Made by a program: the position numbers and the translations under genes | NCBI GenBank assembly: GCA_944548615.1 | Contig: OX155979.1 | Span: forward strand, 14,537,597-14,601,596 | DNA: 64,000 bases | Source: Micropterix aruncella | Taxonomy: Eukaryota > Arthropoda > Insecta > Lepidoptera > Micropterigidae | Direction of reading: 5' to 3' | Shown here: piece by piece, positions 1-61,604 of the stretch | Numbering within the stretch: the first letter of the stretch is position 1 | Layout: each line of letters begins with the position of its first letter | Notes under the pieces: generated by a model | The model's database searches: none | The model's input: only the letters and a program-made list of their open reading frames with translations | Told to the model about the DNA's origin: nothing

Positions 1-2357
<2,357 letters not shown>

Positions 2358-2418: not shown

Positions 2419-5918
<3,500 letters not shown>

Positions 5919-13958: not shown

Positions 13959-18333
<4,375 letters not shown>

Positions 18334-18411
18334 TGTTATAAATATTATTAGCGCAGTTTGTATATGAGATATTCCAACCATAATTACATAATGTGAACAC
18401 AGATGCATAAC

Positions 18412-37022: not shown

Positions 37023-37062
37023 AGTGTGACGTTTATGAATAATAGTATTGCTTATTTATTGA

Positions 37063-38993: not shown

Positions 38994-40309
38994 CTTTCTG
39001 TCTAAAAAGTTCCGGGAATTTAGAATTTAAAAAGATTCTGTTAATGATTAAAAAAAAAAAAAAAACTTAAGTTGGTAGAACTGTCTTTATTTACTCTATG
39101 CCTAGAATGCGCGCGAACTGTCAGCCATTTAAATTAGAACAGCAATTGAATTGTACACCTTAGTAGTGCGTCACGATTTTCACAATGAACCAAAGTTTTG
39201 AACAAAGAGTTTGCCTTAAATTTTGTGTTGCGAACGGATTTTGTGCCAATTCCCTAAAAATGTTAGAAAAGGCTTATGGTGAATCAGTTCTATCCAAAAC
39301 ACGGATCTACGAGTGGTACAAAGCATTCAAGGAGGGCCGAGAGATCGTCGAAGACAGCCCTCGTTCCAGGCGACCTTTGACCTCTTCAAAAGACGAAAAT
39401 ATCGAAAAAGTCAAGGAAATTGTGCTCCGTAATCGCCATTCCAGCTTAAGAGAGATAGCACGTGACCTGAACCTGAAGTCTCATGAGTCTATTCGCTCGA
39501 TTTTGGTAGATAAATTGGGCATGAGATGCATCGCCGCTCGGCTCGTTCCAAAGAAGTTGAATTTTCTACAACAACAGTACCGCAAACAAACTTCTTTAGA
39601 CATGCTGGATCGCGTCGATTCTGATCCCACATTCATAGAACGCATTATAACTGGCGATGAGACATGGGTCTATGAATTTGATATGCAAACAAGTCAACAG
39701 GCATCAGAGTGGAGGACAAAAAACAAGCCAAAACCGAAAAAAACCACGACAAAGTCGTTCAAAAGTCAAAGTGATGCTCATTGTTTTCTTTGATATTCGC
39801 GGTTTAGTCCATCACGAATTCGTTCCAGAAGGACTAACGGTCAATAAGGAATATTATTTGGCCGTTTTGAAGCGTTTACGTGAGAAAATCCGTCAAAAAT
39901 GGCCTGAATTGTGGATCAACAATTCGTGGATTTTCCACGACGATAATGCACCGTCGCATAGAGCAGCAATTGTGACCGAATTTAAGGCCAAAAACGCGAC
40001 AAATACAATTGATCAACCACCGTATTCACCAGATTTGGCCCTGTCAGACTTCTTTCTGTTCCCAAAACTAAAATTGCCTCTTCGTGGTACCCGTTTTGAG
40101 TCCATAGAGTCCATTAAAGAAATTTCGTGGAAGGAATTGAAGGCTATACCGAAAAACGCCTACAAAAAGTGTTTTGAAGATTGGAAAAAACGCTGGCGAA
40201 TGTGTGTTGCATCAAATGGGGACTACTTTGAAGGTGATAAAATAAACATTGACGATTAAACGAAAATTGTGTGTTTTATTTAATAATTCCCGGTACTTTT
40301 TAGACAGAG
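38994..40309 (+). mobile_element. mariner transposon, 1.32 kb
   Basis: Flanked by TA at 38992-38993 and 40310-40311. Terminal inverted repeats: CTTTCTGTCTAAAAAGTTCC on the left matches the reverse complement of GGTACTTTTTAGACAGAG on the right. It encloses a transposase gene of normal length interrupted by one frameshift. Confidence 0.92.
39185..40259 (+). pseudogene. mariner transposase, single frameshift
   Basis: A DDD transposase that cuts and rejoins mariner ends at TA sites. The N-terminal part from ATG 39185 has the paired helix-turn-helix region (RIYEWYKAFKEGR, then SLREIARDLN). The first catalytic Asp is in TGDETW. The second half, in another frame, carries HDDNAPSH and YSPDLALSDFFLF, with the usual mariner spacing to the third Asp. 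Length across both frames fits the ~345-aa norm. The frame changes at a run of seven A (39737-39743). Frame 1 ends at 39793 and the second frame runs to TAA at 40259. Apart from this the gene is open, so the inactivation is recent or an assembly error. Confidence 0.92.
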
Positions 40310-42300: not shown

Positions 42301-42401
42301 GTCGTCAGAGGAGTACACATAGAAGCTCCTCATCTAGTCAGGCGGAGAAGTATAGACCAGCAATTGAGGATAGCTGTGTTCTACGATCACTCAGTGTATA
42401 G
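42301..42401 (+). CDS. Leishmanolysin-like peptidase (invadolysin) exon
   Basis: A 101-nt internal exon. Acceptor TCTCTTTGTTTTAG at 42300, donor GTACGT at 42402. Only one frame is open: VVRGVHIEAPHLVRRRSIDQ followed by QLRIAVFYDHSVY. It leaves two bases for a split Arg codon. Followed by the exon at 44801 it matches the region before the catalytic domain of M8 leishmanolysin-like metallopeptidases, where LRI..YYD.SVY..EKF is conserved. These are zinc proteases linked to cell migration and mitosis in Drosophila. The upstream exon with signal peptide was not found. I am confident in the exon. The family call is from memory of the pattern and strengthened by the three exons fitting in order. Confidence 0.85.
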
Positions 42402-42549
42402 GTACGTATCTAGACATACATGGTGTGTCCGTAAAGTAATGAAACTGACCGCGGCATAGCGCTCCAGTCGCCAGAAGCGCGCATAATGGCGGCGGGATTT
42501 GTAGTGGGGGGGAGGGGTCTAAGCTAAGCAATGCACTGGGCGGCAATAG

Positions 42550-43175
42550 GGGCTAACGGGCCCATGATGAGGTGGCCACGATGACCCATGTGTTCAGGGT
42601 CGGTCACACTCACGGGTCAACACCCATCCGACGGCCTCCCCGCATGGGGTGCGAATCCTGGGTAGGACACTGGGTCAACCAGTCCCCCCTGGGAATCAAA
42701 CCTCTGGCGCCCCTGGACGGTCTGCACACCGTGCGGCGCAAGCCAATCGATTGTGCTCTCCGACTAACAGTCGGGAGAGTCTGGGAACTGTATTGTTTCC
42801 TACAGAGCGGGGGTGGTTGTCTACCTTACGGCGACTGCTCTTGAAATGACCATTGGCCATCCGATAGAGATAGATTCGGTGCACACCGTTTCACCGCTTC
42901 GTAAGGGAGAGGACCGCGCAAGCGACCTCGAACTCGGAACCAATCGAGAGACCGGAGAAATCTGGTCACAATTGGAAGTGAGGGCGCGAGTATCTCGAGC
43001 CCGCCGGGTTTATTCCTGGCTAACTTGCGGTAAGGCGTTGGACTCTCACGGGTTGTGACGTAGCTGGACGTAGAATTGTACTGTCCAAAGTCTTCTACGT
43101 TCACTGCAGGGCGACTAATCGTTAAAACGTCCTGTGGTGACGGGCTCGCCCGTTGTAGTCGACACCGCAAGATGG
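42550..43175 (+). mobile_element. R1-like LINE 3' region, best-preserved copy
   Basis: Runs from GGGCCCATGATGAGGTGGCC to GTTGTAGTCGACACC with all family landmarks in order, so it can serve as reference for the other fragments. A GGTGCGAATCC stretch resembles a polymerase III B box but no A box at the right distance is convincing. Confidence 0.78.
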
Positions 43176-43371
43176 CGGCAATAGGGTCTGAGTTCTGACG
43201 CAACTAGAGTTGCGGCCGGGGACAGCAAAATCAGGCACGAACTTATGCAAACATATGTAACGGACCTTAAGTCCATTACATGCGATCAACAAATGCATCG
43301 ATTCCCAATGAAATACACTGACACAATTCAGCTATTATTTTAACCCGTGCAGCCATGAATCAGCACGATGA

Positions 43372-43715
43372 AACAATACTTTTACTCGGAATATTTTGGA
43401 TTGCGTCATTTATCGGCCTATATAAACCGGCGAAAAAGCAACCAAATTATCATTCCCCGAGTGATCACCTTCCCCCAAGGTTGCGACGGCATATTCGGTA
43501 CCCTTCTCACGAGGTGTGTCAACGAATCCTGCTCCTTGGTTTCCTTTCCTTATCTTTTCCAGTCACGAAGCATCAGTCTGTAACCCCACAGTGCCCAGTA
43601 CAAGATACTAGGAGCACACATACAATCCTCATCCATATATCCTCGTAACCGCGGTCGCGCATCTATACACTCGTGTCAACGTAAAGTGTTCGGGAAGCGT
43701 TATTACTGGCAATAT
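43372..43715 (+). repeat. Dispersed ~350-bp repeat, twin of 33470-33832
   Basis: Same ends and TATA-like centre as the twin. The LINE at 43716 is joined at its right edge in the AATATAATA sequence. Confidence 0.7.
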
Positions 43716-44640
43716 AATAATAATAATAAACTCTTTATTTGCACTTAAAAAGTATACAAAAAAGGCGAGCTTATTGCCACATGGCAATGTCTTACAGCTA
43801 ACCTAAACATAGTGGCACATGCGCGCATTGTGAAAATAAAGATTATTACATAGTGGAAGAATTTAAGACTAATAGTGCCCGAGGAGAGGAAATTGGGGGA
43901 GGAACAGGAGAGAAAGGGAAGAACTGGTTACTTCTTAGAAAGGTAGTAATCCTTAAGGTGAGTCTTAAACGATGGTAAAGAAGGCGAGTTTCGTATATTT
44001 GCTGGGAGATCGTTCCAGAGTCTTGCACCATGGACACAGAAAGAATAAGAATAGAAATCACTATTATGACTCGGAATTTTTAATAAACTGTCAGAGGCTG
44101 ACCGAAGTACGAGACCGTGGGAACTTAGTGGTTCAAAAAGCTCCTGGAGATAGGATGGTGTTAGTTGGGTGAGTACACGATATAGGAGAGCCAGTATACG
44201 AACATTTCTTCTTTGGCGTATTGGCAACCACTTTAACTGTGCCCTATAGTCGGACACGTGATCATACTTACGTAGACCGAAGATGAATCGTATGCATACA
44301 TTTTGCAAACGTTCAAGTTTGTTGAGCAGTTCCTCTGATAAATCGAGATAAGCCACATCTGCATAGTCAAGCAGAGGCAAGAGGAGAGACTGTGCAAGAG
44401 ATTTTTTTGTGTCCATAGGAAGAAATTTTCTGAGTGTTTGCAGAGGGTGAAAACTAGCAAATATTTTACGACTTACCTCGTCCACGTGTGGTTGCCAGGA
44501 TAAATGTTCATCGATAATTAGACCGAGATCTTTCACTTTTTGCGACAATGGTATGGTGATATCGTTCAATATCAAACCTTCGATCAATATATTCCTTCTA
44601 TTTAATTCAAAACCGCCTTTCAATGCTGAAATAACTCGTA
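43716..44640 (-). mobile_element. 5'-truncated Jockey/CR1-type LINE
   Basis: (ATA)n tail at 43717-43733 and about 190 bp of 3' UTR. A 231-aa open fragment (44623-43928) begins after the YADD region: KVKDLGLIIDEHLSWQPHVD, the LLLPLLDYADVAYLD block, LERLQNVCIRFIFGLRKYDH and SFCVHGARLWNDLPANIR. These are the thumb and C-terminal motifs of the Jockey/CR1 group. It is open throughout, so it is fairly young, but it lacks endonuclease and most of RT. Confidence 0.85.
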
Positions 44641-44800
44641 GGTTGATACCACCACCTCACACCGAACAATTTGGAGTCTAGTGAGGGGTGGTCCCTCACA
44701 CATCTTATAAATACCTGAAACATTAGATCTTGAATAATTGCATTCTTACCTCGGTTTTCTACCTCGGTTTCTCACCTCGGTTTTTGTTTCTATTTTTCAG

Positions 44801-44831
44801 GCTCGATCCAGAAAAGTTCGACCTCATCAAT
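44801..44831 (+). CDS. Leishmanolysin-like peptidase (invadolysin) micro-exon
   Basis: Only 31 nt, between acceptor TATTTTTCAG and donor GTAAGT (44832). With the two bases left by the previous exon it reads R-LDPEKFDLIN and ends on a codon boundary. The EKF.L.N motif is what follows SVY in leishmanolysin-like proteins. Both splice sites are strong. Length and phase (2 in, 0 out) fit both neighbours. Confidence 0.83.
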
Positions 44832-44889
44832 GTAAGTGTATTTTTTTTTAAATCTTGCGCTATGTATACTCAGATTCGTCCCATCTCCA

Positions 44890-45890
44890 TCATAAAACCA
44901 TTGATTATATAGTATGGTATTCGGTAAACGCAGAGGAAATATTCATAGTACAAAAACGATGCTTACGAATAATATGTGGAATTCCAAAGACTGACAGCTG
45001 CAAACCACTATTTAAAAAGGAGTTTGTGCTAACGTTTATATCGATATACATCTTGGAAACCTGCAAATTTATTAGGGACCACGATCAGTATTTCAAAACA
45101 AACAATGTTGAACACGGCTATAACACACGAAATAAACATGAGCTACAAGCACCCAAGCCAAATTTAACTCTATTTAAAAAAGGAATGTTATACAATGCAA
45201 TAAAAATCTATAACCACCTACCTGCAAATATCAAAGAAATAAAAGGAAAAGGGTTTACCGCAGCGTTGAAAAAATGGCTTATCGATAAAAGCTTTTACAC
45301 ATTAAACGAATATTTCTCATAATATTATATTGTAGGCATGCATTTTCATTTTCTTTTTAAATTAATTCAATTAGAAAGATTACAAATTTTCAATTATATA
45401 CATTTCGTATTTATAGGCGGATTTTTGATTATTCCTTGATTTTGATTTTTTTTTCATTATTTTTTATATTATTGATGAATTATTTTTTTTTTTTTTTTAT
45501 TAATTGTTTTCTACTGTTACATTTTAAATTATATACATTTCGTATTTATAGGCGGAATTTTGATTATTCCTTGATTTTTGATTTTTTCTTTATTTTTTAT
45601 ATTATTGGTGAATTATTTTTTCTAATTGTCTTCTATTGTTAGCTCTACTTATCCGGTCTGTTTAAATTGTTTAAATTTTTTTTCATGTTAAACCAGTGAA
45701 ATAATTGCATTTTTAATAAGATATTATAATTAGCAGATAAGTCAATTTAGCAGATAAGTAAATTTGTCAATCTGTTTTAATAACAGGTAATTGTGAGATA
45801 CATAGTTTTACGCATTATCACCATAAATGTACCACCACAATTTCGGACAATAAAAATATTTCTATTTCTATTTCTATTTCTATCAGATTG
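44890..45890 (+). mobile_element. 5'-truncated Jockey/CR1-type LINE with (TTTCTA)n tail
   Basis: Coding part to 45322 with FIVQKRCLRIICGIPKTDSC, a LFKKEFVLTFISIYILE block, HGYNTRNK and the IKIYNHLPANIKEI...LKKWLIDKSFYTLNEY end. About 540 bp of 3' UTR holds two copies of a ~115-bp T-rich unit (TATACATTTCGTATTTATAG at about 45395 and 45531). The tail lies at 45862-45889. Confidence 0.82.
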
Positions 45891-46234
45891 CACAACGTCA
45901 TAGTACGTTTCGGCAATCCTATGGCAACCGGCAAGTAAGAGCGAGAGAACACTGTTTTAGCTATACTATCTATAATATATTGTTAAAAGGTAAAGTTTGT
46001 GGGGTTGCAGGAAGTAATCTCTGGATCTACTTTACCGATTTTGAAAATTCTTTTACCAATAGAAAGCCACGTTATTTGTGAGTGTCATATGCTATATATT
46101 AATCCGAAAAATTAAAAGACTTATTCGTAGTATATAGTCGAATTTGCAAAGTAAATCGGAGAAAAAACTGTCCAGTGAAAAGGTTTCTTACGAACGCTGC
46201 CTTAACGATGAGAGAATGGCGATTAGCTCGGGTT

Positions 46235-46416
46235 TGCCTACGGCAAAATGTATATAAATTTATATTTACATTTACATTTACATTTACATAGAGCGGGGTT
46301 TACTATAGAGCTATAGCATTACTATAGAGCGGATTATTATAGAGCGGCGCACATTTACATTTATATTTACATTTATATAAATTTATATACATTTTGTATA
46401 CATTTTGCCATAGGCA
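46235..46416. mobile_element. 182-bp MITE or foldback
   Basis: TGCCTACGGCAAAATGTATA at the left is mirrored by CATTTTGCCATAGGCA at the right, and inverted (ATTTAC)n stretches follow inside. The centre repeats CTATAGAGCGG three times. Absent from the other Helitron copies at this position. Confidence 0.7.
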
Positions 46417-46515
46417 TCCATTATTGGACGTCTCACATGTGAGGGGGTTCTAGAGAAAAGTTGTAGAACTTGATAACGTTTACAAAAAAGTCAGCGACAG
46501 CATATGTCTATCTTT

Positions 46516-46668
46516 GAAATCGAAGACTATCGCGGTTGTTTGACATTATAAATAGGATAGAAAACGAAGCTCTTCAGTTTACCCTTGACAACGGCGGCTG
46601 CAACGTCACCGAAACGTCGGGTCCTACAAATTTCACGCGGTAAATTCGTTTTCTATCCTATTTATAAT
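46516..46668. mobile_element. Minimal Penelope-derived foldback insertion
   Basis: GTCTATCTTT occurs at 46506-46515 and again at 46669-46678, a likely 10-bp target duplication. The ~150 bp between are the Penelope-like terminal sequence folded on itself: left arm GACTATCGCGGTTGTTTGAC to GATAGAAAACGAA, right arm TTCGTTTTCTATCC to ATAATGTC, around a 70-bp centre. No coding capacity remains. Confidence 0.8.
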
Positions 46669-47242
46669 GTCTATCTTTTATATTTAAGTCACAAAAAGTA
46701 GTTTTTCATATTAAAAAAAATAATTTAAATCGTTAGATCATGTTTATTGGTCATATTATCAACAAATTATGAATTCTTATCAAACTAGGTAAATTTATCG
46801 TCTTAAGTATTTAAAACAAAAGACTTTTCCCTTTTACTGCATATGATTTTCCTTTTACTGCATAAATGGTTAAAGAGATAATACGACATAGGTATGAAAC
46901 CGCGACCGTATCTCGTGTGGGAACTCCTGAAAGAATGGTACCAAATAATAACATTACATCTAATATAGTATACAGAGAAGTTTTGAACAATTAAAATATT
47001 TATTCAATCATAATCATTTCATTCACTCATTTGAAACCCGGTAATATAGCCAAATCGGCATGCAAATACATACATACATACATACATACATATAAGCAGT
47101 AAAAATATAACCCTCCGTTTGGCAGTCAGGAAATGAATCATTGCACTCAGTACTATACGAGCCACACTCATAATTTCATCACAAGTAAAAATGTTTACCG
47201 CCCAACGAAGTGGGCACGGGTCAGATAGTTAGTAATAATGTT

Positions 47243-47872
47243 AAAAATAATAATAATAATAATAATAATGCTTTATTTAAGAGAAAGTAGTACAAAAATT
47301 ATGTCCTAAAAACTACCCAACTAGGTTAATGCCCGTTCTAGGGTAGATTCTTTTCTTTTAAATTAAGATGCGCACGTAATTTTATACTGCAATTATAGAA
47401 CTATGGTATTATTTTACTTGTTTATATCATATTTAACATTATACATATAATATTCTCATTTATATATAAATATATACATTTACCTACTTGTATTATTTAC
47501 ATACATTTGCATTTACGTACATGTATTTATAAGTAATATATAATTGAATAAATTGATAACGTCGTTTTAAACGAGGATATGTGTAATAATTTCAGCTACC
47601 TTTTCCCTGCCGGTCTCAAACAGCCACAAAGTAAGTTTTCCCTTTTTCATATGTAAGCTTTTGCATTTTTTTAACTTATCCTGAAAGTAATTGTGGAGTT
47701 TAGGAGCTACACAACTAAAGTGCCTTTGCGCAAATTTAGTTTTGGTTTTTTTAATTAGGTGTTTTTCTGACGCGCAACCTCTAGTTAGAATCTTGTGGTC
47801 AGTGATGTTGTGTGTGTGCGGATTGTTGAGATAATAAAGTAGGGTTACTTTTGCATAGATCTGTCTAACGTC
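47243..47872 (-). mobile_element. 5'-truncated LINE, twin of 32594-33228
   Basis: (AAT)n tail at 47245-47268, UTR, and the same C-terminal coding fragment (47875-47567), differing at about one residue (KK for KQ). The shared 5' end suggests either duplication or a preferred truncation point. Confidence 0.85.
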
Positions 47873-48185
47873 CAAAAGTCTCAGCTCTTTTAGTAGTTCG
47901 TTGGTTGGATATCGATGTGATAATCAATGTATTAGTGATAATCAATGTATTATTAGAGTATTGTTTGTGTGCTAATTATACTAAATATATAAATAAATAA
48001 ATAAATCAATGAGATATTATTTGTAAAAGAATCCTAATTGATAGTCATTAATTGATAATATGTAATGTCAAATTAAAAATGGTCATTTTATAGAATTATT
48101 TTTCTTTTTGATTTATTCCAAATTTGATAAATTAACAAAGCATTTAACCATCAACTCTTATTCTTTAAATGATCATAAATAAAAT
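47873..48185. other. Unassigned AT-rich DNA
   Basis: Contains a short direct repeat GTGATAATCAATGTATTA and an (AAAT)n run at 47986-48006. No gene seen. Confidence 0.4.
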
Positions 48186-48627
48186 GCCTAATACTGTTTC
48201 CTAAGCAGCGGGGGTGGATATTGACCTGTTGCCATGCCACTCTTGAAATGACCTTGGGCCACTCCACCCCGTATGGCACTACGTACAAAGAACGCCCAGG
48301 TCCGCGATAAATTCAAACTGAATTACCGCTGTAATACAACAGGTAAAGGTCGCGTAAGTGACTTTGCACCTGTAACCAGTCGGGAGGACGGAGGTATCCT
48401 GAAGGAGATATCCTGCTAAAACTGGTAGTTAGGGGGTGAGGATGCCCCCTGGTTACTTTTCACCGTGCCTCGCCGTAAGGCGTCGATCTCTAACGGGTTG
48501 CTGGTGGACTAGACAGTAGATTGTCTTGTCCCCAAGTCTTCTACGCTCATCCCACGGCTGAAAGGACGATCTATATCGTTATTCCAGCCTGGGGTGACGG
48601 GTTCGCTCGTTGTAGTCGACACCGCTC
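48186..48627 (+). mobile_element. R1-like LINE 3' region, second subfamily
   Basis: From ACTGTTTCCTAAGCAGCGGG to GTTGTAGTCGACACC. It shares ACAACAGGTAAAGG and GTTGCCATGCCACTC with 26013-26715. Confidence 0.75.
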
Positions 48628-48633
48628 TACTAT

Positions 48634-49050
48634 TTATTATTTATTTATTTGTTTATTTATTAGTTTCAAATAGTATTCAAGGGCATTACAGATGAATCCA
48701 ATTCGCCCTTGAATATTAAGCTGGAGTGTAAGTCTAAAAATAAATGACTACATAACTAAATTAATGCTAACATTGAACAAGAAAAAAAACATAAAAATAT
48801 AATACTAAATAAAAGACAGATTATGATAAACATGAGATAGCAGGGATGTACAAAAGATATCTATTTCAGTGAGTAAGGAATTAAGAAGAGCTATAACCCT
48901 TCCCACTGGCCTGTCTACAAAAATATTCGTACGGTGGTACGGCACATTAAACAATAGATGCGATCTCCTCGCTGTGTAATTTACCGGTACGTACAATTCA
49001 AACTTACATACTGCACTGGGCCCATTAGCTGCCAACGATTCCAACACTTC
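48634..49050 (-). mobile_element. 5'-truncated LINE
   Basis: An (AAAT)n-type tail at 48634-48662, then UTR, and an 80-aa coding fragment (49047-48805) with RRSHLLFNVPYHRTNIFVDR, then LLNSLLTEIDIF, a LINE C-terminal pattern. No catalytic residues. Confidence 0.6.
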
Positions 49051-49430
49051 TAAATCGGTTTAAGCATTTAGAAGTTATGTTGGAATAAAGAAACGATATA
49101 CACACAGACGTGAACCTAAAAAAAAATACGCCTTTTTTTGGCAGTCGTATAATAAGATTTTGTTGTTCTACGTGTAATACATGTATAATTAAAACATAAA
49201 ATGACATACCTGATTTGATTTGTTATTATTTTGTTTATATATTTATTTAAGAAATAATTACTATAAAACATCGATTAGCTTACAAAAATAACAGGAACCG
49301 AATGGCAAAACCTTAACCATTTGCTTATTTGTTTCTGTCACTCAACTGGGACTAGCCCGTTTTAGGGTGGACAGGACTCTAATATTACTTATTTATTTAT
49401 TTTATTTCTGGAAACATACAGCGCATACAA
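49051..49430. other. Unassigned AT-rich DNA
   Basis: No gene recognised. It probably contains a further LINE tail near 49375-49405 (ATTTATTT run). Confidence 0.35.
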
Positions 49431-49431
49431 T

Positions 49432-49463
49432 TGACGTACGTGTGCATAAACACGTACGTCAAC
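49432..49463. repeat. Perfect 13-bp hairpin
   Basis: TTGACGTACGTGT, loop GCATAA, then the exact complement ACACGTACGTCAA. It lies immediately left of the diverged 557-bp repeat. Confidence 0.93.
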
Positions 49464-50198
49464 GACTGCTTCCTTTCATTGATGTGAGGGCATGTCACGC
49501 ATTTAGTTTTAATTTTTCAGCTGAATATTATTGATCGCAGCTTCTTTATATCGCACCTTTAGAATATAAAAAAATAAAAAAACGAAATTCGAAATTTTAA
49601 ATTCTTCCATCTGTCAAGTAGCTCGTCTTGTCCGTTATTTCCCTTGAAATGATAAGTATTCGAGTGATTTTACGTGTAAATAAGGATGATTGCTTAATTT
49701 TTGAGATAATTGGATGAAGGGTGAGCGTTACTAGTTGTAAAATGGGCCCAACTAAACCTACTTCTCTTTCCGCAAGTGAGAGACATCTATCATTCCCGTT
49801 TGTTACACCAAAGCATTCCCGAATCCCACCAAGGGAGTCCTTCGTCACGATCTAAGTGGCTTTTATAATTATTTACTTTATAATCATCTATTTAATCAAT
49901 TTTAAAAAGAATATATACACAAAACTATAAAATATTTCAAAATATTGAATTTTTACATATTTTATGTTTCCTTCATTGTAAATAATCGACTTACGTTAAA
50001 GGTAAACTTTCCAACTAATAGGAAAGAGCTGACTGCTTCCTTTCATTGATGTGAGGGCATGTCACGCATTTAGTTTTATTTTTTCAGCTGAATATTATTG
50101 ATCGCAGCTTCTTTATATCGCACCTTTAGAAAATAAAAAAATAAAAAAACGAAATTCGAAATTTTAAATTCTTCCATCTGTCAACTAGCTCGCCTTGT
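49464..50198 (+). repeat. Diverged 557-bp repeat copy
   Basis: Partial unit, one full unit (49494 to 50060, period 567) and a partial unit ending at GTCAACTAGCTCGCCTTGTAC. About 10 percent different from the 1171-2357 array, so an older copy. It joins directly to a Helitron. Confidence 0.85.
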
Positions 50199-51174
50199 AC
50201 GTTATTTGTGAGTGTCATAGGCTATATATTAATCCGAAAAATGAAGAATTTTTCGTGGTAGTCGGATTTGCAAAGTAAGTCGGAGAAAAAACGGCCGAAC
50301 GAAAATGTTTCTAACTAACGCTGCCATAACGATGAGAGATATATGATTAAATTCTAGAGAAAAGTTGTAGAGCTTTATAATGCCTACAAAAAAGTCAACG
50401 ACAGCATTTGTCTAACTTTTATGTTTGTCACAAAAAGTAGTATTTTATATTAAAAAAAATATTTAAATCGTTAGGTCATGTTTATTGGTCATATTATAAA
50501 CAATTATGAATTCTTATCAAAATAAGTAAATGTATCGTCTCAAGTGTTTAAAACAAAAGACTTTTCCCTTTTACTGCATATAATTTCCCTTTTACTGCAG
50601 AAATGGGTAAAGAGATAAGACACATAAATAAGACACTCATAAGAAGACACTCCAACAAAGTAAAATGGACGAAGGACGTAATGGAATGGTATCCTAGAAA
50701 TGGGAAAAGACAAAAAGGACGTCAAATTAAAAGATGGGAAGATGACTTACCGAAAGGATGGAGAAGATTGGCTTGGGACAGAGATGAATGGAAGAAAATG
50801 GGGGAGGCCTATGTCGAAGGACAACCTGACCAAAACACTGGCTGCTGAAGAATAATATTATGATACCTTATTTAAAAATTAGATTTAAAAAAATATTAAA
50901 ATATATTGTTTTACCACATAAGGCAAAATTGTATAATACGGTCAGCGAATAAAGGCTTTTATTATTATTATTATTATTATAAGAAGACACTCACAAATAA
51001 CGGTAATATAGTCAAATTGACATTCAAATACATACATATATGCAGTAAAAATATAACCCTTCTTTTGGCAGTCAGGAAATAAATCATAGCACTCAGTACT
51101 AACCGAACCACACTCATAATTTCATCACAAGTAAAAAGTTTAACCGCTCAACGAAGTGGGCACGGGTCAGCTAG
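50199..51174 (+). mobile_element. Non-autonomous Helitron, 5'-truncated, with nested LINE tail
   Basis: Starts at GTTATTTGTGAGTGTCATAG, about 110 bp inside the family consensus, and ends GGGTCAGCTAG. It is interrupted by 50653-50978. Confidence 0.78.
50653..50978 (+). mobile_element. RTE-type LINE 3' tail with 14-bp target duplication
   Basis: Flanked by ATAAGAAGACACTC at 50639-50652 and 50979-50992. The coding remnant (to 50848) reads KGRQIKRWEDDLPKGWRRLA, then WKKMGEAYVEGQ, the R..RW.DD....W...GEAYV ending of RTE/BovB-type proteins. The tail is (ATT)n. Confidence 0.82.
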
Positions 51175-51511
51175 TTAAAACATAAAATTACATACCTGAT
51201 TTGATTTGTTATTATTTTAAGAGAACAAAATAAATGGCTTCTTTTCCCTAAGGAGAATAATATAATATCGATTAGTGCCCTCAAGATATTGTTCCAAAAA
51301 TAGGCACTGTAATCCTAGCAACCTCCTCCCCACCTTCCTCCGTCGACTGTAGCAACCGTACTCCATTATGAGATGACATTTTATAACGAGTGGAACGACT
51401 TTTATAAAATTGTATCAACCCTTAAAATGCTGAGTGGGGTCCTATAGGGACCCCAGAAAGCATTTTTCCTTAATAACTTTTTATGTCATTTTTGTAATCT
51501 TAATATATATA
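51175..51511. repeat. Dispersed repeat copy (51230-51420) and a palindrome
   Basis: Minus-strand relative of 31890-32060. GGGGTCC-TATAG-GGACCCC lies at 51436-51454, just after AACCCTTAAAATGC. Confidence 0.55.
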
Positions 51512-52330
51512 AATTACGTGTCACGTTGTTTGTCCGCGATGGACTCCTAAACTACTTAACCGATTTGAATCAAATTTGCACACAATGTGCAGTTTGATCC
51601 AACTTGAAAGATAGGATAGCTTACGTCTTAATTTATAGTCGCGATATTATTTTATTGCAATGTCTATTATTTGACATTCGCAATTATCTGTTAGTTCCAA
51701 ACGATTTTAACAGATGGCGTTATCTATTGAGTAATCCATAGATGGCGCTGCTATGTTAAACCTACAAACGTCATAGTCGGCCAAGCGTTATTCTAAATTC
51801 AAAATATTGTGAAGGTAATACAGTGGAATTATTCCTGCTTTTTAATTATTTGTGTTTCATTGTTCAAAACTCTTTAATTAAAATATATACATGTAAGTAT
51901 TATCACATAGTTATAAAAGTGGAATAACTGCAGTATAGGAACCTCTCTCCAATTTTTTTCATTTTAATGCTAAATCTGGAAGAAAATTGTGTCGGTCGCT
52001 ATAAATAAGCGAGATATAGGCATTCAAAGTTTAAATTTTAAAAACAGGCCAAAATAATATAATATAAAAATGGATGTTGGTATATCTGTATGCCCGTCTG
52101 TCCGAGTTTAATAGACTCCGAAACCGTTTGACCGATCACCATGAAAGTTGGCATATATATGTATTTTTTCATGGTTAAGGTTTTTATATATATCCGCTTT
52201 GTTGCAACTTTCAACTAGACGGCGCTGCAGCACACCAACTTCTATACTGCTCAACCGATCGCCAAGAAAATTGGTATACATTGGTATTTGAGAAAAGATA
52301 TAACACGGGCAACGCCGGGTAATACCACTC
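51512..52330 (+). mobile_element. Second Helitron-like family
   Basis: Begins TATATAAATTACGTGTCACG...GTCCGCGATGGACTCCTAAA and ends ACACGGGCAACGCCGGGTA. Both are ends I associate with short Lepidopteran Helitron-type repeats. There is an internal boundary near 52030, so two copies may be joined. Non-coding. Confidence 0.5.
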
Positions 52331-52564
52331 GTTTTTCATATTTAATTTGTTTTTCCTTTTTTCATCGTCAAATATTGTGGATGATTGGTCTATTCTAAAA
52401 ACAGTAACCAATATTTTGTTTTTAGCTATGAACATACTGTGGTCTCCAGAAGACCATACCGTAACTAGTGTGCACTCAATTCTCGCGCAATAAATCTGCA
52501 GATAACGCCGACCGAATCCTTTTATTTATCAGGATTTTAGCTACTCAAAATATGAAACTTCGTA

Positions 52565-53275
52565 TATTCATATTTATATTCATTTTATTAGTCAGTCAGA
52601 TACAGATTAGCAAACATGCATACAGATTAGAAAACAAACGAGAAATGTAAAAGGGGGAAATACAAGACAAAATGCACACTTTAGCCACCAAAGCATTTTA
52701 GACTTCACTCGTGTAATATTCCTCCAGTGAGTAAAACGCCTTATCTGTGAGGTACCTCTTGGCGTCTCTTAAACACGCCAAGAGATTGCGCCTGCCTAAT
52801 GTACTCGCTGAGTTTGTTATAAACATCAAGGCTAGCCTCTGCGACTTGGATAATGCATGACTTACCGAACGTAGCATGCTACGGGATCTTGTTGGATAGT
52901 GATGATGCATACCATTCACTTCAAAATCGGATAGATTTCTGCGAACGAACAGCGCTACTTCCATTATATAAATGGACGGCAGCGTCATGATGCAGAGATC
53001 TCTAAACAGAGGCCTAGCTGGCGTATCAAGCGCCACACGCGCTATTGTGCGGACTGCACGCTTCTGCATAACGATGTCCCTCTGCCTGTCGGCTGCTCGT
53101 CCCCATAATTCCGCGCCGTACGTTAGCAGTGAAGGAACATATGCAAAGTAACACATGCGCAGCGCGGATAAATCGAGAAATGAAGCGATGTGCATAGCAC
53201 GCTCTTCCCAATTTATCACATAAAGCATCAATATGTAGGTGCCATCGTAACATTATCGACTACGAATCCCAAGAA
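52565..53275 (-). mobile_element. 5'-truncated LINE with one frameshift
   Basis: An ATGAAT-rich tail on the left. The coding part starts in one frame (53253: WHLHIDALCDKLGRACYAHR) and continues in another (to 52698: MCYFAYVPSLLTYGAELWGR, MQKRAVRTIARVALDTPARP, and ending YLTDKAFYSLEEYY). The break is near 53165-53185. Jockey/CR1-type RT C-terminal half. Confidence 0.8.
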
Positions 53276-53928
53276 CTTTGTCGAGGATTTGAATTTAAAT
53301 TTGAAAAGTTATACCACTGATGATGCGGGTACCTAGAGGTCTGGTCTTGGTAATCAGAAGAGCACTCTAGGCGGGTTATAAATTTTGCGTGAGATCCGTG
53401 TGAGTTTGCTAGCTTGAAGGACCACCTGGTGTACCTTAGTACCCAGGAGCGGATATTTAAAGTGGAAAGACAGGATGTCGGTACTTACGGTTTTGTTTGT
53501 TCCGTCTGTGCTGCTGGACTGCACTGCTTCTGCTTCTCGTTTATCTGTCACTCACTGAGGTTTCACACGAATTGCGATGGGGGCTAATCAACACAAAGGT
53601 TTGTGTGATGCGATGCGGCGGTTTGCGACGAGAAAAAACGATAATCTCGTCTGTTGTTGCGGAGCGAATTGATTCGACGACGCGCCTCGCCAAGTCAACA
53701 AATATACTGTCCTACCCGTCGTTCCGACGGGGCGATCAGTAGCGCTGGGCGGCTCAGATCGGCGCGGGTCGCGACATGTTTAAATGGGTACCGACAATAT
53801 TGATTGGAGCGGAAGAATTTAAAAAAGGGATTGGATTAGACAAGTGATTAGGAGGCGGAAAATTACGCTAATTCTCACACAAACCTCACTGGCGTGAACA
53901 ACCACAAACGCCGCCTAATTGAACACTA
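53276..53928. other. Unassigned segment
   Basis: Mixed composition with no family recognised. Frames of 65-81 aa lack any known motif. Confidence 0.35.
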
Positions 53929-55957
53929 GCTGACCCGTGCCCACTTCGTTGGGCGGTAAACATTATTACTTGTGATAAAATTATGAGTGTGGTTAGGTTA
54001 GTACTGAGTGCTATGATTTATTTCCTCACTGCCAAAAGAAGGGTTATATTTTTACTGCATATATCTATGTATGTATTTGCATGCCAACTTGGCTATATTA
54101 CCGGGTTTCAGATGAGTGAATGAAATAATTATGATTGAATAAATTATGTTTATTTTAATTGATCAAAACTTCTCTGTATACTATATTAGATGTAATATAC
54201 CAAAATATATTGTCTTTCAGGAGTTCCGACCCGAGATCAGGTCGCGGTTCCATACCTATGTATGTCGTATTATCTCTAACCATTTATACAGTTAAAGGGA
54301 AATTATATGCAGTAAAAGGGAAAGTCTTTTGTTTTAAACACTTGAGACGATAAATTTACTTATTTTGATATGAATTCATAATTGTTGTTAATATGACCAA
54401 TAAACATGACCTAACGATTTCAATATTTTTTTAAATATAAAAAACTACTTTTTGTGATTTAAATATAAAAGTTACACATATGCTGTCACTGACTTTTTTG
54501 TAGGCATTACCAAGCTCTACAACTTTTCTCTAGAACTCAATCATATATCTCTAATTGTTAAAGCAGCGTTCGTAAGAAATGTTTTTATTCGACCGTTTTT
54601 TCTCCGACTTACTTTGCAAATCCGACTATCACGAAAAAGTCTTTTCATTTTTCGAATTAATATATAGCCTATGACATATTCTAGCTGGCTGCAAGGTGGC
54701 CTTGGATCAAGGACGGTTCACTTACCGCCATGACAAAGTCCTTGCTGTTATTCGCGAGGTAATTAGCCTCTCAGTGGCTCGTGCCAACAAGGGTTCCACA
54801 GTATCCTCCCAACCCCCAATACAGTTTGTGCGGGTTGGCTCTAAAGGCAAAAAACATCTCACTGCAAAACCTTTCTCAATAATCGAGAAAGCTTCAGATT
54901 GGATTATGGAGGTCGATTAGGTCTCTAAGCAGTATAAATTCCCTGAAAGTCTCGGATGCACAGCCCTGCGTCCAGATATAACTCTTTACTCTCTATCTCG
55001 GAAGATGGCCCTTTTTGTACAATTAACTGTTTATTTCATGGGAATCAAATATCCCTAAAGACCGCGAGTACAAATTAAACAAATACCATGATCTCGCAAA
55101 TCACCTTCACACGGTGGAAGTTGGCGCTCGTGGCCTGCAAGCTAAATCTTTGTTTCACCTTTTTAAAGATCTTGGTCTCTCCAGGAAAATAATCAACTCC
55201 TTTCTAGAAAAATTATCTAAAACCGCTATTTCCGCATCTCAAATTCAATGGCTTCGAAAGGGGAGTGAATGGGTGGTAAGGTGAACGCTCACATGTGGCA
55301 AGACATCTGTCCTAAACCTACCACAGCCGGTCGTTAGTCCGGAATCCATCCTTCACCTCCCAGAAGTGTAATAATTATATATGATGGGCCTGATTTCGGT
55401 CGGTGAATTCCATGGCAGCTCCGTTTGTATTTTTAACACGCTTTTATTAGGTCGACCTGTATGTAACTATGTAATGGAATCTAAGGTAACTAATTTAACC
55501 ATCTTCCAAGGATCGTAGCGTCATGAAAATTGGCAGCTGTATGTAGTTCTGATGACAATACAATAATATGGTACTGTCGAACTGATCTGATGATGGAGTC
55601 GGAAGATATGAACTGGAACTTCATGATGGAACATCGTATCATAGCTGTGTTTGGAGTTGTTAGAAAAGTCTTGGAATAAACTTTGACCACGATTAGGTTT
55701 CAAGGTCTGATGATGAAGCCGGAAGATAGGCACTGGCATTCCATGATGGAATATCGTATCATAACTGTGTGTATGTGAATATCGTACCATAGCGCAAAAG
55801 CGTGTTTTTAGTGTTTTTTTAAACTATTAATTTATATTTACTCACAACTAACGTGGCTTTCTATTGGTGAAAGATTTTTCAAAATCGGTTCAGTAGATCC
55901 AGAGATTACTCCCTACAACCTCACAAACTTTACCTCTTTATAATATTAGTATAGATA
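53929..55957 (-). mobile_element. Non-autonomous Helitron, inverted, with nested insertion
   Basis: On the minus strand it runs from TCTATACTAATATTATAAAG (55957) to CTAG (53934-53931 region). It is interrupted between TATGACA and CTCACAACTAACGTGG by 54678-55846. It ends about 210 bp upstream of the exon at 56170. Confidence 0.78.
54678..55846 (+). mobile_element. Decayed retroelement fragment nested in the Helitron
   Basis: The first frame (54696-54920) reads ALDQGRFTYRHDKVLAVIRE and, further on, PFSIIEKASDWIMEVD. Broken frames follow with RPDITLYSLSRKMALFVQLT and a VEVGARGLQ-like stretch. This order (R..WRHD.VL, W...D, RPD...L, ELTVP, EVGARG) is known to me from the C-terminus of some animal non-LTR elements with an RPD...E.T nuclease-like motif. 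The 3' part has a ~110-bp tandem duplication (about 55579 and 55688). Confidence 0.55.
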
Positions 55958-56169
55958 AGGGAAGATTATTTAGCGTTTGAAACTACAAGTGCCATCTACA
56001 CGTTGCGTTTTGTTGTAAAATCCTAGCTGCCTAAACGTACTATGGCATTGAGGAATCTAACACCCTATATATCAAATGCCTCGACTGACTGTGGATTCTT
56101 ATACCCCCCCTTTTGTTTACCCCCTTAGTTACCCTCATTTTGTTTACATGCATATGTTTTTCTATTTAG
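55958..56169. other. Intron sequence before the third exon
   Basis: No repeat recognised. It includes a CCCCCCTTTTG run near 56104 and the acceptor tract TGTTTTTCTATTTAG. Confidence 0.5.
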
Positions 56170-56252
56170 GAAACTATTTTACCTGAAGCCGTCAGGTACT
56201 GGGAGAGGACTCTATCAGTTCGACGGACAGCTGACGTCATCAGATTGAATAG
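56170..56252 (+). CDS. Leishmanolysin-like peptidase (invadolysin) exon
   Basis: 83 nt between acceptor TTTTTCTATTTAG and donor GTAGGA (56253). Phase 0 in and 2 out, matching the micro-exon before it. It reads ETILPEAVRYWERTLSVRRT followed by ADVIRLN and a split Arg codon. The block TVLPEA.RFWE.AL.VR...VIRLNR is among the best-conserved parts of leishmanolysin-like proteins before the first Cys. This exon makes the family assignment. The next exons (Cys-rich segment, HExxH) were not found in 56253-64000. Confidence 0.9.
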
Positions 56253-56661
56253 GTAGGATTTCCATATTATTTATTTTCTAGGATGTGAACCATTTATTTT
56301 TATTCTATTGCGATCGCCGTGACTGCGAACACGCTGGCTGCGATGCCATTTTGACGTGACAACGTCTTATAAATCGATGGGCCTGCTGCACGCACGAAAA
56401 AACATGACTCATGCGGCGTTACCTCGCTCTGAGGCTTTCCATTTATTATATTTATTATTCAATATAAATGTTGCCATCTACCGGTTGCGACAAGAATTAT
56501 TTACTAACCTCAGTCTAAAATAGTACGAATGAAAATCACTAGATTGATTTAAATTCTTGACATAATTTTATATGTATTCTTGATAGACGGAATGTTATTA
56601 CTGAACGGACAATTTTCTTGTGGGTACAACGAAGTGCAACGAAGTAAGCAACTTTTATTTT

Positions 56662-58325
56662 TTTTAAATATATCATTCTTCTTCTTCTTCTTCTTCATCA
56701 GCGCGTATTCGCCCACCGTTGGGCATACGCCTCTCCAATCACTCTCCACCCGGATCGGTTGTCCGTTTCCCTCATCCAGACTGGTCCAGCTATCTCCTTG
56801 ATGTCATCTGACCATCGGGCCGGTGGTCTGCCCACACTTCTTCTGCCTAGCCGGGGTCTCCACTCCAAAACGCGCTTGCTCCACCGTTCGTCGTGTTGTC
56901 GGGCCACATGGCCGGCCCAAGCCCACTTCAGCTTGGCCACTCTTTGACCCACGTCGACCACCTTCGTGCGCTGTCTGATGAGCTCGTTTCGGACTCGATC
57001 GCACAACGATATGCCAAGCATGACTCGCTCCATGTTACGCTGTACCACCTTAAGCTTGTAGATCATCCCAGCAGTCAGTGTCCATGTCTCACAAGCATAC
57101 GTCATAGCCGGTAACACACACTGATTATACACCTTTGTCTTGAGCGATTGGGGAATTCTGGACTTCAGCACGAAGCTCAGCTTCCCGAAGGCTGCCCATC
57201 CCAATTGTTTCCTTCGCTTTATCTCTGCCATCATCGAGTCCCGGCCGAGCTTTATCACCTGTCCTAGGTATGTGTACTCCTGCACCTGCTCCAGCGGTTG
57301 TCCATTCAATGAAATGGGATTCGGTGTGAGATCGGCTTTCGCCATAACCTTTGTCTTGTCCATGTTCATCTTAAGACCCGTTCGCAGGGACGCGTGATAT
57401 AGTTGCTCCAGCATGAGTTGTAGGTCTTCGGCACATTCAGCGATTATAACTATATCATCCGCGTAGCGCAGATGATTGAGATACACGCCGTCAACGTTGA
57501 TTCCCTTGCCACTCCAGTCCAATGTCTTGAATATATCCTCCATAGCGTTGGTGAACAGCTTAGGGGATATAACGTCACCTTGTCGGACTCCTCTTTGGAT
57601 TGGTATAGGGTCTGTTAGTTCTTTCAGCTGTGCGGTCATTGTTGCCGCTTTGTACAAGCTCTTCAGGATCTGTATATACCGGTAGTCTATATGACATCGA
57701 TGTAGCGATTCGGTGACTGCCCAGTGTTCTATGGAGTCGAATGCTTTTTCATAATCGACGAAGGCTAGATAAAGGGGCCTATTGTATTCTTCGGACTTTT
57801 GGATAACCTGCCGAAGTGTGAAGATGTGGTCGATCGTTCCAAAACCCTTCCGAAATCCTGCCTGTTCCCTGGGTTGATATTCATCCAGTCTTTGTGTCAA
57901 GCGTGTAGTCAGGATTTTGGAGAATACTTTGTACACCTGACTTAAAAGTGAAATAGGACGATAATTTTTCAGAAGGGTCTTATCGCCTTTCTTATGGAAG
58001 AGCACAACGATGCTGTTAGTCCAATCCTTGGGTACTTCACCAGTGAACAAGACCTCGTTGAACAGCAGACTTAGCTCCTTTACGATAGCTCTGCCTCCAG
58101 CTTTTAGTAATTCCACAGTAATACCGTCCTCACCCGGAGCTTGAACTTCTTAGTGCGCTTCAGTGCTTGCTTCACTTCATACGTACTAATTTCAGGAATA
58201 TCTTCCGTGTAGTGTCGCTTGATAGGCGCACGCCTGTCGCTTAAATCAAGGGCAGTGGGCTGTTGTGTGGTGGTTGAGTATAGATCACTGTAGAATTTCT
58301 CTGTGATTTTCCTGATCTCACAGAT
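56662..58325 (-). mobile_element. RTE-type LINE, 5'-truncated
   Basis: (GAA)n tail at 56678-56696. It carries the RT frame below plus about 200 bp of upstream coding sequence in a different frame. 5'-truncated at 58325. Confidence 0.85.
56698..58116 (-). pseudogene. RTE-type LINE reverse transcriptase, near-complete RT domain
   Basis: A 472-aa open frame. RT motifs in order: FHKKGDKTLLKNYRPISLLS, EQAGFRKGFGTIDHIF, AFVDYEKAFDSIEH (first Asp), GVRQGDVISPKLF, LRYADDIVIIAE (catalytic YADD) and YTYLGQVI. The C-terminus has GHVARQHDERWSKRVLEW and a RPPARWSDDI...GEAYAQRW ending typical of the RTE/BovB group. Upstream coding sequence (APGEDGITVE) continues to about 58145, where a single-base shift moves it out of frame (further upstream reads TYEVKQALKRTKKF). 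The apurinic-type endonuclease is missing, so the copy is dead on arrival. The minus strand runs opposite to the host exons. Confidence 0.88.
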
Positions 58326-58815
58326 GTTATGCGCTATCTAGCGGTTGGTAAAATGTCGATGCGCTATCTAGCGGTTGGTAAAATGTCGCTGATATTGTTT
58401 ATTGACGACGTATAACCTACCGCTAGATGGCGCAGCGTGCTCAAACGCTTCTCAAACCGTTATTTAACAGTTTGAGATTTCAAACTTTCAAATAAAATAA
58501 ACGATAAACTTTAAACAATAAACAATTATACAATTATACTGCTATACAATAATACATTTACATGTTGTAGTCAAATCGGTGAGTATAAAAGCATATATTT
58601 TTGGGTGTTTGTAATAAACAATATCAGAATCTTAAATGAAACTGCTTCAAATGCAACCATTCCATCAGTATTTTCTTATGACGTTGTCACGTTCAACTAT
58701 CGTCAGTAAACCGACTTTACAGACAACCGATTTTTTTTGATTGACATTCATCCCGTGCTTAAGAGGTATTTTCGGGCAACGTTGAACTTCTTTACAGTGC
58801 GTGTGAGACAGGAGC

Positions 58816-59190
58816 TAATGGGCCCTTGCTGAGTTGGCCACGAAGACCCATTCTGTTCAGGGTTGGTCACACTCACGGGTCATGGTCCGCGATAGATTCG
58901 GTATACACCGTTTCACCGCTTCGTAAGGGAGAGGACCGCGCAAGCGACCTCGAACTCGGAACCAATCGAGAGACCGGAGAAATCTGGTCACAATTGGAAG
59001 TAAGGGCGCGAGTGTCTCGAGCCGCCGGGTATTATTCCTGGCTATCTCGCGGTAAGGAGTTGGTCTCTTACGGGTTGTGGCGTAGCTAGACGTCGGATTG
59101 TTTTGTCCAAAGTCTTCTACGCTCACTGCAGGTCGATAGAACGACTAATCGTTAAAATGTCCTGTGGTGACGGGCTCGCCCGTTTTAGTT
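58816..59190 (+). mobile_element. R1-like LINE 3' fragment with internal deletion
   Basis: Starts GGGCCCTTGCTGAGTTGGCC, jumps at CACGGGTCA to GGTCCGCGATAGATTCGG, and ends CGCCCGTTTTAGTTGACAAC. About 330 bp is missing relative to 42550-43175. Confidence 0.75.
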
Positions 59191-59299
59191 GACAACTCAA
59201 TATATAGATGTAAAATGGTGGTGCATTTCGTCTTGACTTGACAGTTAGAGAGAAACAGGGGTATTCCATATTAGGGATACTATTCCATATTTGGTTACG

Positions 59300-59577
59300 T
59301 TCCTCTAACCAGTCGTAAGGACGAAGGTATGCTTATGGTTAATTCCAGACGGAGATATCCTGTCAAAACTGGTAGTTAGGGGGTGAGGCTGCCCGCTGTT
59401 TGCCTTTCCCAGTGCCTCACCGTAAGGCGTCGGTCTCTAACGGATTGCTGTTGAACTAGACAGTGGATTGTCTTGTCCCCAAGTTTTCTAAGTTCATCCC
59501 ACGGCTGAAAGAACGATCCATATCGTTATACTAACCTGGGGTGACGGGTTCGCCCGTTGTAGTCGACACCGCCCTAT
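59300..59577 (+). mobile_element. R1-like LINE 3' terminus, third subfamily
   Basis: CAGACGGAGATATCCTGTC to GTTGTAGTCGACACC. Closest to 18412-18795 and 26013-26715. Confidence 0.72.
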
Positions 59578-59722
59578 TGTGCGTTCACAATAATTTACCT
59601 CCTCGTCACATGGTAGATATACCTACGTAATATGATGAAATTTGCGATCAGCTCATTTAGAAAACAAAAGCAAAAAAGCAGAATAAAATCGAGTATTCAG
59701 TATTCAGAATATACAATAAAAG

Positions 59723-60451
59723 CATTTATTTATTTATTTATTTATTTATAACGTACAAGAACAAAAAAATACAAGGACATGCATACTGTTGTACATGAGG
59801 AATAATTAAGAACAAACATTTATAGCGAAAAACATAGCTCTATGCATATAAATATGCTAGCATATCCGAATGAGGCGAAATCGCACAACCAACTAGACCT
59901 AGAAGGTCTGTCTCTGGCTGTGCTGTGTTATACCAACTGTATTTTTGTAACTCGCGAACTGACGAAGGTGATCAATTTTAAATATTTCTAAATCTAACAA
60001 ATGTGTTGTTTACACAAATTAAAGTAAAATTTAAAGTAGAAAAAATAAATATATATATATATATGTATGCAATTAAGGGCTAAAAATAAAGTAAACTACA
60101 TAATATACAATAAATTTAAGTGGAAAATAAGTAATAATATATACAAATATATGAATAAACACTACATTCTAATATATATGTTTAAGAAAATGATATGTAA
60201 TATTGCACAATTTTACAAATACATATTTTTTTAAATATTCACCCTACAGTATTAATAAGGTCTTTAGTTTTTGAACGCCCAATATCTAGAAGCCAGTTTT
60301 TTACTTTACCATTAAAAGTTACATAATTTTTCACGTTTTTCGTGGTTTCACATAGTGAGTTATAAACTTTCGGGGCGATAAAAAAACATTGTCTTCGGGC
60401 AAATGTGCTTTTAACCTTTGGAATTGTGAAAAATTCCTTTCCAGCATTTCT
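59723..60451 (-). mobile_element. 5'-truncated Jockey/CR1-type LINE
   Basis: An (AAAT)n tail at 59726-59748, long AT-rich UTR, and a coding fragment to 60239 reading TFARRQCFFIAPKVYNSLCE then KVKNWLLDIGRSKTKD. It ends at the TTAAGAGCC junction with the duplicated segment. Confidence 0.72.
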
Positions 60452-61184
60452 CGTTAAGAGCCGTATCACATATTTTTTCCAGAAAGGCAAGAAAAGTGGA
60501 TTTTTGGCGTTCTAATTCCAAGAAATAAAGAGATTTCTACAAACTTTAATTACTGAATTACCTGGACCATTTCTTGATGTTGACCATAGCGGCCTTTAAT
60601 TTTAGATGTAACGAATATTATTTACTTATTCAGCCCATTTTCCGAAAGTCGTTATTCGTAAAACGCTCGGAAGGCAAACTTTGAGCTCCTTAATACAGTA
60701 ATATCACTACAACGAAAACCGTTTACTATTTTTTTTTATGTCCGTCATGTATTCTTGATGTACACTACGGCTTTATTTTTTCGTTTTTTGACCACATATC
60801 CAAGGTATACATTACTTACAATTACACAAAATTAAAAAAAAATCTTCCTGTATCATTCTAATTTTCTCAGAAATAAAATAAGATTCTTATATAATACTTA
60901 TACTCTATTAAAGTTCACTCTTTTAGCAATACGACATAATATAAATTATTGTCATTAGAAAGGAGAAAACACTGCAAAAAACAATTAGAAATTGTGTATA
61001 TATTTGCTTGCGCAAGAGAAGAGCGCTCAGTGCCGCGGTTTTTCTCCCAGGGTTGAATAGTTATTTATTTATTTATTTATTTATTTATCCTATCTTTTAT
61101 AGTTACATCCAAAAAAAATGCGTTCATTTTTTCAACTCATTTTAAAAGAATACCTACGCTATTTTGTAATACGGCTCTTAAGTA
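60452..61184 (+). repeat. Segmental duplicate of 19213-23283 without the insertion
   Basis: Continuous across the point (ATTAAAAAAAAATCTTCC near 60842) where the other copy holds 3.35 kb. Over 97 percent identical by eye. Confidence 0.92.
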
Positions 61185-61604
61185 CATTTGTTGACTTCTT
61201 GCTCTGTACTCTTTAGTTTTGTGAAAGCTTACAAGGCACTGCTTAATAAATAGCTGGCAGATATCCAAAACCTTAAACTCCGCAAAGAGCTGGTTTGAAC
61301 TGTACCGAGGAGGCTATTTGTTTATGACTCTTAGCATGAATTATCAATTAGAGCTAATTATCGCATATTAGAATTCGTCAGTTTCTAGTAATATATTAAT
61401 ATTAGTAGATATTTAACTATTAAAGCATAAATATTAAATCGACAATAGCGTTGACTAAAGTCGGCTTTACACGGCAGACTAATAAAATCAAAAAATGAGC
61501 TGAATGTACATGAGTTTACATATAAAATAGATAATTATTATAAGAATATTAATTGTCATCTTAGGCACTTTATACAAAAAATAATCACACAATAGGAATA
61601 TAAA
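61185..61604. other. Unassigned AT-rich DNA
   Basis: No gene or shared repeat recognised. Confidence 0.4.

Follow-up and report, generated by a model that had tools for sequence, protein, structure and literature searches.

We analyzed a 64,000-nucleotide (nt) stretch of the Micropterix aruncella genome (the window; positions 14537597-14601596 of the scaffold here called C46), which carries three short exons matching invadolysin (LMLN), a leishmanolysin-like metalloprotease of peptidase family M8 that is widely conserved in animals. Scaffold C46 bears fourteen additional exons further downstream in the same orientation, and the three exons are very probably coding exons near the 5' end of an apparently functional invadolysin gene that the host carries at a single locus.

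Three coding exons in the window

The three exons lie on the forward strand and are separated by introns made up largely of repeated DNA (coordinates are window positions):

42301-42401, + strand, coding exon 1: encodes VVRGVHIEAPHLVRRRSIDQQLRIAVFYDHSVY plus 2 nt; tblastn E value 9.8e-13, 76% identity to residues 46-79 of P0003
44801-44831, + strand, coding exon 2 (31 nt): encodes (R)LDPEKFDLIN; profile score 34.9, top of 32 candidates
56170-56252, + strand, coding exon 3: encodes ETILPEAVRYWERTLSVRRTADVIRLN plus 2 nt; tblastn E value 1.05e-7, found with 54 of 54 relatives

A sequence-only reading of the window had placed the exons at exactly these positions, and the AG and GT edges and the phases that it gave (2, 0, and 2, compatible on joining) can be read directly from the sequence. 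The exons are 101, 31, and 83 nt long. With a slash marking each border, exon 1 starts at TTTTAG/GTCGTC and ends at GTATAG/GTACGT, exon 2 starts at TTTTTCAG/GCTCG and ends at ATCAAT/GTAAGT, and exon 3 starts at CTATTTAG/GAAAC and ends at AATAG/GTAGGA. In the family-matching frame, all three exons lack stop codons, as that reading had also held; both other frames carry stops in exons 1 and 3, and the 31-nt exon 2 is open in all three frames. Spliced together, the exons encode 72 residues, VVRGVHIEAPHLVRRRSIDQQLRIAVFYDHSVY-R-LDPEKFDLIN-ETILPEAVRYWERTLSVRRTADVIRLN-R. Because 31 nt is not a multiple of three, skipping of exon 2 would disrupt the reading frame. The exons had been described as too short to stand out in a simple frame scan, and indeed none of the 26 stop-to-stop open reading frames (ORFs) of at least 120 amino acids in the window belongs to invadolysin. 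No further invadolysin-family exons were seen in the window by tblastn of relatives or by profile search.

A protein search with the joined 72 residues against 5.8 billion proteins matched insect leishmanolysin-like peptidase/invadolysin, in agreement with the family named by the sequence-only reading. Among 81 candidates scored, 55 reached an E value of 10 or less; the best match, among lepidopteran leishmanolysin-like peptidases, has an E value of 5.3e-28 with 53 of 72 residues identical (74%) and 100% query coverage. The full query is covered by 52 of the 55 matched proteins, and all 55 carry a precomputed PF01457 domain. Those with organism names are from insects, and most are titled leishmanolysin-like peptidase, the rest being hypothetical, uncharacterized, or unnamed.

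We then used 54 of the 55 matched proteins, each of at least 550 residues, as tblastn queries against the window. Exon 1 alone scored 63.2 bits and exon 3 alone 46.6 bits, while the top score per window across 10 dinucleotide-shuffled windows was 25.4 to 32.7 bits. Exon 1 was located by 51 of the 54 relatives and exon 2 by 40 (both in the main bin), and exon 3 by all. On its own, exon 2 gives a weak tblastn match (E value 0.19). Exons 1 and 3 have 32 AG-31nt-GT stretches between them; when these were scored against the family profile, the runner-up to exon 2 reached -10.7, and 200 shuffles peaked at 7.7.

Searches with the 72 amino acids alone returned no Pfam family, PF01457 included, and no PDB match, 1lml included, because the match of the Pfam model begins further C-terminal than the residues encoded in the window; on P0002, the best stretch of the PF01457 model begins at residue 215. 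Likewise, the moth orthologue P0002 matches leishmanolysin (PDB 1lml), the M8 prototype, at an E value of 4.2e-27 with its best stretch at residues 358-656, and the window's 72 residues fall N-terminal to this stretch. We take the three exons to encode the junction of the pro-region and the catalytic (protease) domain, exon 1 holding the last part of the pro-region and the beginning of the protease.

The invadolysin gene on scaffold C46

We searched the host genome (1,078,845,590 bases in 742 contigs) for the remainder of the gene. PF01457 was found in three places, all on the forward strand of C46 and 163 to 190 kb beyond the window end. A full-length moth protein gave 20 matches at an E value of 10 or less: 15 are invadolysin exons on C46 (all but exons 2 and 17, up to C46:14813571), one is a haplotig copy of exon 3 on contig C543, and four on C51 and C24 are weak (E values of 1.3 to 3.1). 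Exon 17 was located by tblastn with 31 of the 54 relatives, and exon 2 was located by tblastn and the profile within the window. The resulting model, with splice sites placed by reading the sequence, comprises 17 collinear exons on the same strand, 14 of them downstream of the window:

C46:14579897-14579997, + strand, exon 1 (in window)
C46:14582397-14582427, + strand, exon 2 (in window)
C46:14593766-14593848, + strand, exon 3 (in window)
C46:14746634-14746745, + strand, exon 4
C46:14756813-14756968, + strand, exon 5
C46:14763665-14763793, + strand, exon 6
C46:14764869-14765050, + strand, exon 7
C46:14772886-14772951, + strand, exon 8
C46:14775613-14775736, + strand, exon 9
C46:14781629-14781730, + strand, exon 10
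C46:14790781-14790968, + strand, exon 11
C46:14799939-14800071, + strand, exon 12
C46:14806655-14806814, + strand, exon 13
C46:14812329-14812423, + strand, exon 14
C46:14812507-14812578, + strand, exon 15
C46:14813440-14813571, + strand, exon 16
C46:14814550-14814708, + strand, exon 17

The located gene extends over 234,812 bp, with a coding share of 0.86%. GT-AG edges are assignable and phases are compatible at all 16 introns, and the joined frame of 2025 nt (675 codons including a single terminal stop) encodes 674 uninterrupted residues. That the window's exons belong to the host gene, as first proposed from the sequence alone, is thus borne out by the remaining exons, which lie in order and in the same orientation within this genome.

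The 674-residue product has the features of the family. PF01457 scores 222 bits against it (cutoff of 21; Pfam M8 E value 1.9e-65), and it shares 61 to 62% identity with insect LMLN proteins over 93 to 99% of the query (Vanessa cardui, 62% over 99%). Across the 54 relatives, 236 columns have a conservation of 98% or higher, and the product keeps 227 of these, along with all 28 cysteine columns conserved at this level in the insect set; within the window's exons, it retains 32 of the 34 columns with a conservation of 95% or higher (31 to 34 in 53 relatives). The zinc-site motifs are HEMLH at position 248, H355 in THWEKR, and M384 in MEDTGW, all encoded beyond the window, on exons 7, 10, and 11. 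We take H355 to be the third His and M384 the Met-turn methionine. Excerpts of a published account (PMC6899020) describe invadolysin as an M8 zinc metalloprotease with HExxH, a third His, a Met-turn, a predicted signal peptide, and a glycosylphosphatidylinositol (GPI) site, the first three being the features that identify M8 peptidases. The same excerpts report a GXSXG lipase motif in invadolysin. This motif is absent from the 674 residues and from the whole sequence of 52 of the 54 insect relatives (present in two), and it is therefore no defining mark of the insect family. By its sequence, the product would be a secreted or GPI-anchored zinc metalloprotease resembling other invadolysins. It is alike in sequence, zinc site, and cysteines to the insect LMLN proteins P0002 (Nymphalis io), P0005 (Vanessa cardui), and P0182 (Arctopsyche grandis). 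These relatives were compared as proteins, and as far as the comparison goes this gene would differ only in its genomic form, with a length of about 235 kb or more and one 153-kb intron.

The gene appears to be present at a single locus. The 72 residues gave three matches in the host genome: exon 1, exon 3, and the second exon 3 on C543, a 22,000-bp contig. The latter copy is best read as the other haplotype, since the exon and its flanks are identical at 125 of 125 positions while about 2 kb of intron is 95.9% identical. PF01457 occurs at one locus (three exons), exons 1 and 3 are unique except for the C543 haplotig, and no second invadolysin gene was seen in the host genome; these searches score only first-look candidates, and the single-copy finding holds within that scope. 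A single invadolysin gene per genome is also what the excerpts of PMC6899020 give for metazoa.

We assessed the phylogenetic placement with two trees. In a tree on 72 columns, in which 20 of 45 forks stay open given the few columns, the window row is sister to 34 rows, the named ones being Lepidoptera (99/95 for the whole group). In a larger tree of 714 columns and 33 selected rows, its position is between the caddisfly Arctopsyche on one side and P0178 with the remaining Lepidoptera on the other (99/96 and 98/90). In the 714-column alignment it is most similar to Arctopsyche, at 64% identity over 585 columns. The placement suggests agreement with the position of Micropterigidae as sister to all other Lepidoptera, as stated in excerpts of PMC10288161.

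Missing 5' end, divergence, and alternative explanations

Several observations weigh against a complete and ordinary host gene. A first coding exon with the signal peptide was not found, by its C.HE.PK motif and a profile, in window positions 1-42300 plus the preceding 10 kb (52 kb in total). The best profile scores there were -1.5 before a GT and 1.9 without a GT, compared with scores of at least 22 for 50 of 51 relatives (the two lowest being 7.9 and 22.2). The -1.5 candidate lies slightly above the best of 10 shuffles (-3.4) and was rejected: a near-copy at window position 27051 marks it as repeat DNA. A genome-wide search with the N terminus of P0178 (first 63 residues) gave six matches, none on C46, with a best E value of 0.07. 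The upstream stretch searched includes 200 N of unknown true length at 23579-23778, and the signal-peptide exon would sit either further upstream or within an assembly gap. The earlier proposal that the window is mostly introns accordingly holds for 42402-64000; for 1-42300 we infer it, since the upstream exon has not been located.

The gene model carries uncertainties of its own. Its canonical edges are partly a matter of construction, as exon edges were picked to fit AG and GT, and they are least certain at the joint of exons 5 and 6, which falls in an acidic, poorly conserved linker. Intron 3 contains a 200-N scaffold gap at C46:14643686, which leaves its true length uncertain, and the repeat shares of introns 12 and 13 are underestimates, with 6,073 of their bases outside the sequence read. 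The protein is also divergent. Only two of the 54 relatives keep fewer than 227 of the 236 conserved columns (191 and 220; the median is 236), and the window's exons keep 25 of the 27 columns at least 98% conserved, equal to the lowest of 53 relatives. The near-invariant residues altered in these exons are F54Y and A58T, seven more are altered over the rest of the protein, and no other terminal branch of the 33-row tree is as long as that of the window row (0.93). Invadolysin is somewhat more diverged here than in most of the relative set, without any break.

The gap in intron 3 raises the alternative that the assembly joined two unlinked pieces, so that the exons would be real and the 153-kb intron an artifact. 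The assembly received 462 manual corrections of missing joins or misjoins and has a contig N50 of 0.5 Mb (excerpts of PMC10288161). However, the exons on either side form one gene on the same strand in the right order with a phase that fits across the joint, the missing exons appear at no other locus in the genome searches, and the gap leaves about 50 and 103 kb of gap-free intron, so that each side is long on its own. We consider a misjoin unlikely.

It is very improbable that the three exons are instead a pseudogene fragment, whether a decayed or an incomplete copy of an invadolysin gene at another locus. The window alone encodes 72 of approximately 700 residues, its row has a long branch, and its conserved columns are altered more often than in most relatives, as a pseudogene fragment would lead one to expect. 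Against this, the genome search with the 72 residues yields just exons 1 and 3 and the haplotig copy (among first-look candidates), 14 other exons follow in order on the same strand with compatible phases and no internal stop, and 227 of 236 conserved columns are retained. The genome search and the splice model thus largely refute a pseudogene fragment. Chance similarity of short open stretches within transposon DNA can be dismissed: all three exons are short and exon 2 is weak alone, but the shuffle controls lie below the real scores, the joint E value is that of the 72-residue search above, and 14 additional exons lie downstream. An apparently intact invadolysin gene, located from exon 1 of the window onward, remains the reading that we adopt.

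Introns, mobile elements, and gene size

The introns that reach into the window, together with one element inside intron 3, are as follows:

42402-44800, + strand, intron 1: 2,399 bp, of which 87% recurs elsewhere in the 277-kb region
44832-56169, + strand, intron 2: 11,338 bp, of which 61% recurs elsewhere in the 277-kb region
56253-64000, + strand, intron 3: its first 7,748 bp (intron end at C46:14746633)
56351-58737, - strand, long form of an element resembling a long interspersed nuclear element (LINE), in intron 3 about 100 bp past exon 3: reverse transcriptase ORF at 56698-58149, Pfam RVT_1 E value 2.4e-36

Intron sizes range from 83 bp (intron 14) to 153 kb, intron 3 measuring 152,785 bp in the assembly, and we call the latter giant by its absolute size. 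All 17 exons are free of overlap with repeats of the 277-kb region, while 15 of the 16 introns are 27 to 92% repetitive; the 83-bp intron 14 has none. About 59% of the window is repeated within the region. A single primary transcript of 235 kb or more would cover the gene, and the transposon-filled introns would be spliced out of it. No nested host gene is evident in intron 3, where 90 stop-to-stop ORFs reach 120 amino acids or more (first 90 residues of the 40 longest viewed). The recognizable ORFs resemble reverse transcriptase, transposase, or simple-repeat frames, or what we take to be the GIY-YIG type, and several could not be named.

The best match of the LINE reverse transcriptase ORF is an unnamed protein (72%), and its best-scoring named relatives are lepidopteran reverse transcriptase proteins (62 to 64%). 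A short form of the LINE without the reverse transcriptase segment lies at 37059-37783, and the haplotig C543 appears to have this short form next to exon 3, a point at which the two haplotypes would then differ. A recurring ORF at 61791-62609 (+ strand), with copies at C46:14679321-14680025 and C46:14715780-14716268, had no Pfam match at 0.01 for its window copy; it presumably holds a GIY-YIG-like stretch, perhaps of Penelope type. Upstream of exon 1, 1169-2357 and 17085-18334 form an inverted pair, each arm consisting of about two tandem 558-nt units, more than 99% identical. Between the arms lies a long terminal repeat (LTR) retrotransposon with repeats at 2910-4152+ and 13959-15200+ (99.9% identical) and gag/pol-like ORFs on the - strand. 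The arrangement at 1169-18334 suggests that a young LTR element sits within a DNA transposon bearing long inverted termini. A minisatellite of approximately 26-nt units occupies 21181-21803. The 288-nt stretches 23291-23578 and 23788-24075, 98.6% identical, flank the 200-N gap at 23579-23778 and are probably two unmerged contig ends, an assembly artifact. A Mariner-like transposase at 39167-40259 (+ strand) is split over two overlapping frames, with Transposase_1 above cutoff and HTH_48 of Mos1 and HTH_32 below. No transfer RNA genes and no Rfam matches at the gathering threshold were found in the window.

We firmly infer, by comparison with excerpts of PMC10288161, that C46 is chromosome 30 and C24 chromosome 18 of assembly ilMicArun2.1. 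Sex linkage as the background of the giant intron was rejected, as C46 matches autosome 30 and C51 matches the Z in that source. In the titles and abstract openings of the literature on Micropterix aruncella and introns, invadolysin is not mentioned, and a literature search linking leishmanolysin-like with Lepidoptera found nothing.

This is a known kind of gene in expanded form, its size being the sole unusual aspect, and its mechanism holds no surprise. Automatic annotation tends to split or miss genes that combine a 31-nt exon with a 153-kb intron. Here, a conserved gene could be recognized from 72 residues amid DNA that is about 59% repeated, giving an exon map of invadolysin, minus the 5' end, for the lineage sister to all other Lepidoptera. 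Excerpts of PMC4402531 describe invadolysin as essential in Drosophila. We tentatively raise the possibility that this is a conserved autosomal gene of well over 250 kb, in which the first exon lies at a distance of more than 52 kb upstream and one intron alone measures about 153 kb. If so, intron 3 would be among the longest introns of a non-sex-linked insect gene, and both the time needed to transcribe the gene and the accuracy of splicing across its transposons could restrict invadolysin expression.

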